Shown here in pieces: positions 21,823-24,668 of a DNA stretch of 64,000 bases. The stretch lies in contig NZ_AUEP01000008.1 in NCBI RefSeq assembly GCF_000426045.1, positions 124,001 to 188,000 of the forward strand, given 5' to 3'. Under the pieces are notes generated by a model, which was not told the DNA's origin, ran no database searches, and worked only from the letters and a program-made list of their open reading frames with translations. Made by a program: the position numbers and the translations under genes. Position 1 is the first letter of the stretch. Every line of letters begins with the position of its first letter. Source of the stretch: Marmoricola sp. URHB0036. GTDB taxonomy: Bacteria; Actinomycetota; Actinomycetes; Propionibacteriales; Nocardioidaceae.

Positions 21823-22779
21823 CTAGCGCAGCATCGGGGCTGACTTGTTGATGGCCGTGAACGCGCTCAGCTTGGTCGTCGAGTTCAGCGTCCAGTTCGT
21901 GGTGCTGTTCAGCTTGGTGTTGAAGTAGGAGAACGCGATGCCGCCGTAGGACACCATGTTGTTGTAGGTGTTCTTCATCCACGAGGGGTTCTTCGCAGCA
22001 GCAGCGTCGCTGTAGCCGGTCTCGGCGAGGCCCCACTTGACGCCCGTGGTCTTCGACCAGGCCTGGATCGGCACGTAGTAGTTGTTGACGAAGTCCTTCC
22101 ACTCGGTCCGGCCCAGGTGGCCGTACTTCTCGTAGATGTCGAACCCGGCCACGTCGACCGTGGTCTTCGGCCAGATCGCACTCATGGCGTACTTCTTGTC
22201 GCCCTGGAACTCGTGGTAGCCCATCAGGATGATGCTGAAGCCGAGGTTGGGCGCGGCCGCACGCATGATCGGCGCGATGCGGGCCTGCATGGCCTTCCAC
22301 TTCTGGATGTCACCGCCGTCGTTCTCCGGCTCGTGGTCGACCGCGACCCAGACCGGCCCGCCGGTCGCCTTCATCCTGGTGGCCAGGTCCTTGGCCCAGG
22401 CATCGCCCTTGCCGGCGGCCATGTCGGCCCACGAGTACGGCGCCTTGAAGCTCATCCAAGGCACTCGGTGCTTGGCGGCGTCCGCGGTGGCGCTCTTGAC
22501 GGCAGACGCGACCGAACCGGAGCTCCAGTAGGTGCGGTGCACGCCGATGGCCTTGCCGATCGACTTCTCCCAGGGACTCACGTCGGCGTTGCCGCCGTAC
22601 GCCCCGCCGACGTAGGCACCACAGCTCGGGAGGCCACGGGCGCTGACCGCGCAACCGTTGGTCATGGTGGCTGCGGCGGCGTTGGATGTGGCCGGTGGGC
22701 CGGTCACGGCCAGGAACAGGGCCATGCCGAGCGACATGATCAGGGCAAGGGACAAGGGTCTGCTGTGGGATGTACGCAT
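21823..22779 (-). CDS. Secreted GH26-like glycoside hydrolase (paralogue 1)
   Basis: The 318-residue protein has a Sec signal peptide (MRTSHSRPLSLALIMSLGMA; cleavage near residue 38). The mature part has PVWVAVDHEPEND, whose Glu fits the acid/base of clan-A GH26-like enzymes, and WGLAETGYSDAA, whose Glu fits the nucleophile. Two Cys near the mature N-terminus (NGCAV, PSCGAY) probably form a disulfide. The substrate is unknown (a mannan-like or envelope glycan is typical). It is about 60 percent identical by eye to the gene at 23341-24291. The ATG at 22779 lies at the conserved signal peptide start; the longer frame to 22839 is leader. Confidence 0.75.
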   Translation of the reverse strand: MRTSHSRPLSLALIMSLGMALFLAVTGPPATSNAAAATMTNGCAVSARGLPSCGAYVGGAYGGNADVSPWEKSIGKAIGVHRTYWSSGSVASAVKSATADAAKHRVPWMSFKAPYSWADMAAGKGDAWAKDLATRMKATGGPVWVAVDHEPENDGGDIQKWKAMQARIAPIMRAAAPNLGFSIILMGYHEFQGDKKYAMSAIWPKTTVDVAGFDIYEKYGHLGRTEWKDFVNNYYVPIQAWSKTTGVKWGLAETGYSDAAAAKNPSWMKNTYNNMVSYGGIAFSYFNTKLNSTTNWTLNSTTKLSAFTAINKSAPMLR

Positions 22780-23340
22780 GGTCTCGCTTCGGGGACGGGT
22801 ACAGGACGGCCCGCACTCCGAGATTCGGTCCGACGACAATGAGCGTCTGATGACCTGCGTGGGCCTGATGAACCTAGCCCGAACGTGCTATGGCAATGCA
22901 AACAGGGTCGTGCCTGTGGACTTCTCCCAGCGCTTGCAGGTGCAAGCAACGCGGCCTCGTCCCCGATGATCCGGGGCGTCGCCGGGGGAGACGCAGCTGT
23001 TGACGCCGCAACCACCGGTGTGGCGGCCTCCATCGCACCGGGTCGACGGCCCGGTGGGCACCCCCGGGGTCCTTCGGGAGATGGCGATGTGGGGCGGTAT
23101 GTCCCGGTCGCTTCGTCCCAGAACCTGCGGCGGCGCGCACCTATACGCGCTATGCCCGAATCGGCGGCGGTCGGTCCTGCGGGGCTGCCTCCCGGACCGC
23201 CCGGCCGGGCCGTTCCGACACGCCGACCGGGAGGTCCCGGGAGGAACCCGGCCCCGGTCGGGCGTGGGGACGAATGGTGCGAGTGCCTCGCTGGTCTACT
23301 TTGCGCAAGCACGAGGATGCGACAGGTGGTGCCGGTGGGG
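22780..23340. other. 561-bp intergenic region: promoter and leader of GH26-like paralogue 1
   Basis: I see no convincing gene; the open frames here are GC-rich shadows. On the minus strand the part 22780-22926 matches the leader of the second paralogue: an identical 17-bp box GTGCCTGTGGACTTCTC (22910-22926, + strand), a candidate -35 TTGCAT (22901-22896) and -10 TAGGTT (22876-22871) with a 19-bp spacer, a dyad TAGCCCG-AA-CGTGCTA (22875-22890), and about 90 nt of leader. The part 22980-23340 is GC-rich and unassigned. Confidence 0.5.
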
Positions 23341-24291
23341 CTACCGCAGCCGTGGTGCCACGCGGTTCACGCGGGTGAAGGCACTCTGCTTGCTGGCCAG
23401 GCTCAGCTTCCAGTTCGCCGTGCTGTTCAGGTTGGTGTTGAAGTAGGACATCGCGATGCCCCCGTGGGCCCGCATGGCGCGGTAGACCCGGGGGATCCAG
23501 ACCGGGTTCTTCTTGGCCGCAGCGTCGCTGTAGCCGGTCTCGGCCAGGCCCCATCGCACGTGCTTGGCCCTGGCCCAGCGCTGGATCGGGATGAAGTAGT
23601 TGGCGTTGAACATCTTCCAGGTCTTGCTGCCCTGCGCGCCGTAGGTCTCGTAGATGTCGAAGCCGGCGATGTCGATCTTGGTGTTCGGCCAGATCGCGCT
23701 CATCCGGTACTTCGCGGCGCCGTGGAACTCGTGGTAGCCCATCAAGATGATGCTGTAGGCCAGGTTGGGCGCGGCGGCGCGCATGATCGGCGCCAGCCTG
23801 GCCTGCATGGCCTTCCACTGCTGGATGTTGCCGTCGCCCTCCGGCTCGTGGTGGATCGCCACCCAGACCGGACCGCGCACGGCCCTCAGCCTGAGGGCGA
23901 GGTTGCGGGCCCAGGCGTTGCCCTTGCCGGCCGCCATGTCCTTCCACGAGTAGGGCGGCTTGAAGCTGATCCAGGGCACCCGGTTGTTGGCCGCGTCGAT
24001 CTTGGCCACCCGCACGGCGGAGGCGACCTGGGAGGCGGCCCAGAAGGTGCGGTGGACGCCGATCTTCCGGCCCATCGAGCGCTCCCAGCCGCCGACGGCC
24101 GTGTTGCCGCCGTACGCCGCGCCGAAGTAGGCGCCACAGCTGGGGATGCCTCGAGGGCCGACGGCGCAACCGTTGGTCAGCCGCGCAGCCGCGGCACTGA
24201 CCGTCGGGACAGGCCCGGAGAGGGCCACCAGGAGTGCCAGGCACAAGGAGATGAACAGGGTCAGGGACAGGGGTTTGTGTGGAGTACGCAT
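23341..24291 (-). CDS. Secreted GH26-like glycoside hydrolase (paralogue 2)
   Basis: The 316-residue paralogue of the preceding gene keeps the signal peptide (MRTPHKPLSLTLFISLCLAL), the two mature N-terminal Cys, the HEPEGDG and WGLAETGYSDAA motifs with the two presumed catalytic Glu, and the IAPIMRAAAPNL-type helix. Mature charge differs: this copy is richer in Arg/Lys, so the two probably act on different substrates or sites. Each gene has its own related promoter, so they are not simply co-transcribed. Confidence 0.75.
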   Translation of the reverse strand: MRTPHKPLSLTLFISLCLALLVALSGPVPTVSAAAARLTNGCAVGPRGIPSCGAYFGAAYGGNTAVGGWERSMGRKIGVHRTFWAASQVASAVRVAKIDAANNRVPWISFKPPYSWKDMAAGKGNAWARNLALRLRAVRGPVWVAIHHEPEGDGNIQQWKAMQARLAPIMRAAAPNLAYSIILMGYHEFHGAAKYRMSAIWPNTKIDIAGFDIYETYGAQGSKTWKMFNANYFIPIQRWARAKHVRWGLAETGYSDAAAKKNPVWIPRVYRAMRAHGGIAMSYFNTNLNSTANWKLSLASKQSAFTRVNRVAPRLR

Positions 24292-24668
24292 GGGCTCGCT
24301 TCGGGGGAGAGGACGGGACCGCCCGCACTCCGAGAAACGGTCTGACGACTGTTCAGACGTCCCCCCCATGACCTGCGTGGGCCACAGGAAGATAGCCCGA
24401 ACGGGCTATGGCCTGGCAACACTCAGGGTGCCTGTGGACTTCTCGCACCCAGGATCGTCGGGGCCTCACCGCCGTCGGACAGCGTGCTGCTGGCGCGCGT
24501 GGGCGGTCGGATGACGAGTACCGGATACCTCCTGATTTGCGGGGGTTTACCGGATCAAAATAGTGCCCAATAGTCCGAAATGCACGGGATTCCAAAATTG
24601 CCGACGGACTCCGCCAGAAGCCCCGCGGCCGCCGTTACCCGGACGAATCCGGGCAACTCGCAGGTGGT
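24292..24668. other. 377-bp intergenic region: promoter/leader of GH26-like paralogue 2 and an AT-rich patch
   Basis: On the minus strand: the 17-bp box shared with paralogue 1 (24428-24444), candidate -35 TTGCCA (24419-24414), candidate -10 TATCTT (24394-24389) with a 19-bp spacer, a perfect dyad ATAGCCCG-AA-CGGGCTAT (24392-24409), and a conserved leader to the ATG. The stretch 24530-24600 is near 50 percent AT, far above the surroundings. No gene is visible. Confidence 0.5.

Follow-up and report, generated by a model that had tools for sequence, protein, structure and literature searches.

A conserved operator-like dyad upstream of tandem GH26-fold genes and its predicted surface-lifestyle regulon in a soil actinobacterium

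A tandem pair of genes for GH26-fold proteins

The window analysed here, a stretch of 64,000 nucleotides, comes from the 4.83 Mb genome of a soil actinobacterium of the Nocardioides/Marmoricola group. It carries two tandem paralogues on the reverse strand. Gene 1 (21823..22779, ATG at 22779) encodes a secreted single-domain GH26-fold protein of 318 aa with a signal peptide, and gene 2 (23341..24291, ATG at 24291) encodes its paralogue of 316 aa. The proteins are 65% identical and the coding DNA about 74% identical (mean over codon positions), values somewhat above the approximately 60% at which a first-pass annotation had put the divergence of the coding parts.

No Pfam or NCBIfam profile matched the pair above cut-off, and a profile search against the PDB returned weak matches to GH26 and GH5 enzymes. 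The AlphaFold model (pLDDT 89) gave a clearer indication: the five best Foldseek matches were all to the GH26 lichenase CtLic26 (E = 8e-14, TM 0.64-0.73, 18% identity). Glu150 and Glu253 of gene 1, located where strands 4 and 7 end, are invariant in 16 homologues; fold and Glu pair are thus the features shared with CtLic26. The tandem proteins differ from it in sequence, with the identity of 18% quoted above and no match to a curated family. The structural match and the invariant glutamates mean that the description 'GH26-like' holds for the fold and for the probable catalytic pair. The tandem proteins are thus probably secreted GH26-fold enzymes with a catalytic Glu pair; their substrate we can only infer.

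At E <= 1e-60 this family is represented in 40 of 342 genomes from the taxonomic family, where it often forms one domain of a longer protein. Nocardioides aequoreus and a Marmoricola MAG are among the related records of the genome collection. Three more paralogues are present in the genome studied here (L011, L012 and L013; G000:C2 and C4), two of which sit behind an N-terminal domain and a linker. A search for a plasmid or viral origin gave no match.

Promoter and leader features

Upstream of each gene the first-pass annotation had described -35-like and -10 hexamers separated by 19 bp, a dyad within this spacer, a 17-bp box identical in both genes and conserved leader blocks; all of these are indeed present. 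The probable -10 hexamers, on the reverse strand as are all features described below for the two genes, are TAGGTT for gene 1 (22871..22876) and TATCTT for gene 2 (24389..24394). A TANNNT hexamer occupies the matching place in the orthologues from two other genomes, TAGCGT in the sister genome G012 and TAGGGT in G002. The -35-like hexamers read from the sequence, TTGCAT (22896..22901) and TTGCCA (24414..24419), are weak, and neither they nor the 19-bp spacing are kept in G012. A consensus scan of the window promoters found no sigma-70 promoter, a good -35 being absent.

The 17-bp box (GTGCCTGTGGACTTCTC) is located at 22910..22926 for gene 1, where it is read as GAGAAGTCCACAGGCAC and its half-site-like core AAGTCC lies 33 bp from the dyad, and at 24428..24444 for gene 2 with the same spacing. 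A search of the 4.83 Mb genome found no further exact copy beyond the window pair, and just GTCCAC is kept in G012. We therefore rejected the box as the key element.

The leaders (22780..22870 for gene 1 and 24292..24388 for gene 2) share the blocks GGCCCACGCAGGTCAT, CTCGGAGTGCGGGC and CCCCGAAGCGAG. The last of these adjoins the start codon and represents the ribosome-binding region; most of the blocks are not kept in G012. A function of the dyad or the leader as RNA, in the form of an attenuator, riboswitch or terminator, was considered, as a 6-bp hairpin could form from the dyad and some exact matches to it elsewhere are located where RNA hairpins are typical (rpsO-pnp). However, the leaders fold no better than shuffled sequences (z = +0.96 for gene 1 and -0.40 for gene 2, with a third value of +1.73), the Rfam search of the leaders matched no family, a scan found no intrinsic terminator at the site, and several of the sites at flp genes described below are palindromic as DNA operators yet mismatched as hairpins. 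An RNA function is thus highly unlikely, and a known RNA family, riboswitch or attenuator in the leaders was rejected on the folding and Rfam results.

The dyad over the -10 hexamers

The dyad is a 16-bp inverted repeat with 6-bp arms, a 4-bp centre and a CCGNNCGG core, for which the consensus is TAGYCC-NNNN-GGRCTA. The copy of gene 1, TAGCACGTTCGGGCTA (22875..22890), has one mismatch to TAGYCCNNNNGGRCTA, and that of gene 2, TAGCCCGTTCGGGCTA (24393..24408), matches the consensus exactly. With up to one mismatch allowed, the degenerate dyad occurs twice in the window versus 0.14 occurrences expected from shuffles. A scoring matrix was built solely from sites at flp (Flp pilin) genes of 16 other genomes, this genome and G012 being left out. 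It ranks the two dyads first and second in the 64 kb (23.4 and 16.7), the third best score being 12.7; among 100 Markov sequences of the same length, none had a best score >= 23.4 or a second-best score >= 16.7. On the sequence evidence the operator-like element is genuine and conserved; as a response-regulator operator it is of an ordinary kind.

At both genes, and likewise at the G012 orthologue, the last two bases of the dyad are the first two of the TANNNT hexamer, so that the dyad overlaps the probable -10. Its position in a long spacer had led the first-pass annotation to recall MerR-family promoters, in which a MerR-type activator would twist the DNA of the spacer. The 19-bp spacer with its embedded dyad does fit such a promoter. 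However, the centre of the dyad is about 3.5 bp away from that of the spacer and its end covers the -10, the spacing is not conserved in the G012 orthologue, and the dyads found at flp and at the whiB/penicillin-binding-protein pair (see below) lie outside any 19-bp promoter spacer. A MerR-family promoter calls for a central dyad between -35 and -10 hexamers that stay 19-20 bp apart. As this is not the case here, the MerR analogy was rejected, and we regard a promoter of this type as very improbable.

BldM is a FixJ/NarL-type regulator of Streptomyces with the Group I consensus TCACcCgnncGgGTGA, and the operators of BldM and BldM-WhiI are 16-bp inverted repeats of 6-4-6 geometry with a CCGNNCGG core (PMC4125116). 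The window dyad has both this geometry and this core. Arm length, centre and core thus place it among the operators of FixJ/NarL-type regulators, away from those of the MerR family. The two differ in their outer arms, which are TAGT/ACTA here and TCAC/GTGA in the BldM operator.

Conservation and history of the upstream regions

The upstream regions of genes 1 and 2 are identical at 115 of 152 positions (76%) versus 58% at fourfold-degenerate sites (Fisher p = 0.003), and the two copies are no more alike than background (34-42%) further upstream than about -190 and downstream of the stop codons. Since the promoter value is close to the approximately 74% of the coding DNA, control elements are conserved over diverging proteins only when synonymous sites are the reference.

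The orthologue of gene 1 in G012 (L032, 71% identity) carries upstream an exact copy of the dyad, TAGCCCTTTCGGGCTA. In the three sequences, gene 1, gene 2 and the G012 orthologue, 14 of the 16 dyad positions are identical versus 69 of 143 for the whole upstream region, and the G012 promoter is otherwise about half diverged. The view that control elements have been conserved over the divergence of the proteins is therefore borne out in part: it holds for the dyad, but neither for the 17-bp box nor for the blocks of the leader. The G002 orthologue (L033) has the TANNNT hexamer at the matching place, and a matrix scan of its upstream region found no recognisable operator. An operator common to all GH26-fold paralogues was rejected, the element being absent from the three other copies in the genome and from five relatives.

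The history of the upstream regions appears to differ from that of the genes. Informative sites upstream group gene 1 with gene 2 (31 versus 4), whereas those in the coding sequence favour a pairing of gene 1 and its G012 orthologue (114 versus 80; Fisher p = 1.7e-7 versus upstream), and the protein tree agrees with the coding grouping (support 93/91). Because of this conflict, part of the similarity of the box and the leader may stem from exchange between the two tandem genes; the alternative is a faster change of the promoter in G012.

Taken further, the same data could mean that the tandem promoters resemble each other chiefly because of duplication and gene conversion, in which case no common regulator would be needed. 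The conflict of groupings, the restriction of the 17-bp box and leader blocks to the tandem pair and the nearly equal overall similarity of promoter and coding DNA are all in line with this explanation. It is nevertheless doubtful, as the upstream identity exceeds that of fourfold sites, faster promoter change in G012 would produce the identical pattern of sites, and the dyad, retained in G012, corresponds to an element that unrelated genes also conserve. Similarity due to duplication had been named beforehand as what would undermine the regulatory interpretation; it does so in part for the box and the leader and leaves the dyad untouched.

The dyad at other loci across the genus

Detection of the motif in genomes was based on pattern searches and on the study of individual stretches. 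When the genome was first searched with the dyad of the two genes, matches were few and not enriched over the control; one of these matches was located between a response-regulator gene and a Flp pilin gene. In view of this lack of enrichment, the case rests on later conservation tests. The pattern TAGYCC-NNNN-GGRCTA occurs 52 times in 24 genomes of the genus, versus 15 times for the reversed control (binomial p = 6e-6).

Flp pilin loci were collected from the genus for comparison of the dyad. It is present, exact or slightly degenerate, in the short regulator-flp intergenic region of essentially all genomes in which the regulator precedes flp. Throughout the genus the dyad is thus found beside the regulator gene and at the neighbouring flp gene, as expected for a regulon centred on the Flp locus. 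It is also found at the opposite end of the tad cluster, at the RcpC/CpaB gene. In the window, an AT-rich patch upstream of gene 2 (24550-24590) contains the half-site AATAGTCCGAAAT and resembles the AT-rich flp promoter.

The most constant location is at -130 to -143 of whiB, where the dyad is present, degenerate in several cases, in 20 of the 20 genomes that carry whiB (L246-L265). The region is the intergenic sequence of a divergent pair formed by whiB and the gene of a class A penicillin-binding protein, and it is strikingly conserved. In the genome studied here (G000), an exact dyad separates a flagellar-type sigma gene from flgN-flgK, with flagellin nearby (L171:3035-3050; G000:C2:153534-153549), and there is a further one at the matching place in G017 (L193). 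The proposal that the tandem genes have a specific regulator gains support from this conservation of the dyad in G012, at flp and at whiB/PBP.

Some exact matches to the pattern look less like operators than like RNA hairpins with GCAA, GAAA or similar loops. They were found at rpsO-pnp (L190, L201, L205 and L206) and at the 3' end of a peroxiredoxin gene (L188, L191 and L199).

Candidate regulator and predicted regulon

Directly ahead of the Flp (Tad) pilin genes lies a pair of genes for a kinase and a response regulator. The regulator (G000:C17:5457-6092) has Response_reg and GerE (LuxR-type HTH) domains, and the gene beside it encodes a HisKA_3 kinase. One close orthologue of the regulator is present in 20 of the 24 genomes. 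These 20 genomes contain 50 exact sites versus 9 in the control, and the four genomes without it contain 2 versus 6 (p = 0.001, a value confounded with phylogeny, as three of the four also have no whiB orthologue). In G013 the regulator and the whiB/PBP site are kept, and no flp gene was found.

We infer from these observations that a NarL/FixJ-type response regulator binds the TAGYCC-NNNN-GGRCTA element as a dimer; the best candidate is that of the kinase/regulator pair at the Flp locus. That the dyad is the operator of this regulator, and that the enzymes join a surface-lifestyle regulon, is in our opinion rather probable. Counting against it are the lack of the element at the G002 orthologue and at the three other family members of the genome, and the exact matches elsewhere that resemble RNA hairpins. 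The predicted regulon would comprise the GH26-fold enzymes, the Flp pili, the flagellar sigma/flgN cluster and the whiB/penicillin-binding-protein pair. As the dyad is common to enzyme, pilus, flagellar and cell-wall genes, a single response regulator would probably control the enzymes within one programme for life on surfaces.

Another protein of the NarL/FixJ type, either an orphan similar to BldM and WhiI or a different two-component regulator, could bind the dyad instead. The geometry suits the whole BldM-like group (PMC4125116), the conservation of the dyad is strongest at whiB/PBP and not at flp, and many LuxR-type candidates exist per genome (113 others at first look in the genome studied here), any of which could bind. 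Moreover, G005 has the whiB site, and a close orthologue of the Flp-locus regulator was not detected in this 92% complete draft. However, the conserved flp site directly adjoins the regulator gene, an arrangement common for local regulators, and it is this single conserved orthologue that tracks the enrichment of sites. A different binder is therefore unlikely.

The placement of the operator suggests the mode of action. A dimer bound over the -10 of the enzyme promoters would most probably keep RNA polymerase out, and the enzymes would then be produced while the regulator is inactive; this would be repression, or its relief on a signal. We lean towards repression at these promoters, with activation or another mode a serious second possibility. 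From far-upstream positions activation is more usual. At flp, where the operator as read from the sequence is far upstream of the likely -10, activation is therefore the likelier mode.

Comparison with known systems

The predicted system differs from that of BldM and WhiI, which are described as orphan, atypical regulators, in that the candidate regulator adjoins a kinase gene. It is predicted to act on pili, flagella and a cell-wall enzyme, whereas BldM controls sporulation genes. A functional analogue from a different phylum is PprA-PprB of Pseudomonas aeruginosa, in which a response regulator controls the Flp pili (tad) together with BapA and CupE (PMC3510237); the likeness consists in Flp pili and surface or secreted proteins under a response regulator. 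In Rubrobacter, the WhiG/RsiG sigma switch controls type IV pili (PMC8325347). Here too an actinobacterial flagellar-type sigma factor and pilus control come together, the sigma gene being in our case a predicted target of the operator. The Rubrobacter system acts through a sigma-specific promoter (TAAA/GCCGATAA) and not through a dyad operator.

A wider, genus-wide regulon of Nocardioidaceae can be proposed tentatively. In it the Flp/Tad pair would act through a BldM-like operator with different arms, and the sign of control would depend on the position of the operator, with activation from far upstream and repression over the -10. Its members would be the pili, the flagellar sigma cluster, the class A PBP and the divergent whiB, the GH26-fold glycosidases and a KAILN-repeat peptide. 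A description of the operator or the regulon was not found in the open-access literature, and the regulon is apparently undescribed.

If this regulon exists, the promoter oddity of one gene pair becomes an entry to a conserved regulon in non-model actinobacteria that ties attachment by Flp pili to motility, to cell-wall synthesis and to the secretion of enzymes degrading polysaccharides. It would also provide a concrete operator sequence and a candidate regulator for testing, and would further mean that the operator geometry of BldM, known from Streptomyces sporulation, is used by pilus and motility regulators in simpler actinobacteria, which would bear on the origin of developmental regulators.

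Two further operator-like sites were noted in the genome. The near-perfect ATAGTCCGTAATGACTAT (matrix score 29.0; L231:3047-3064, G000:C1:626646-626663) is located 67 bp upstream of the gene of a 71-residue secreted peptide that ends in KAILN repeats (start L231:3132). The second, with a score of 23 (L236:3059-3076, G000:C7:195558-195575), precedes a small ORF of 47 residues that encodes a cysteine-rich product (MIATEAALYG...CPRCGCCLN).
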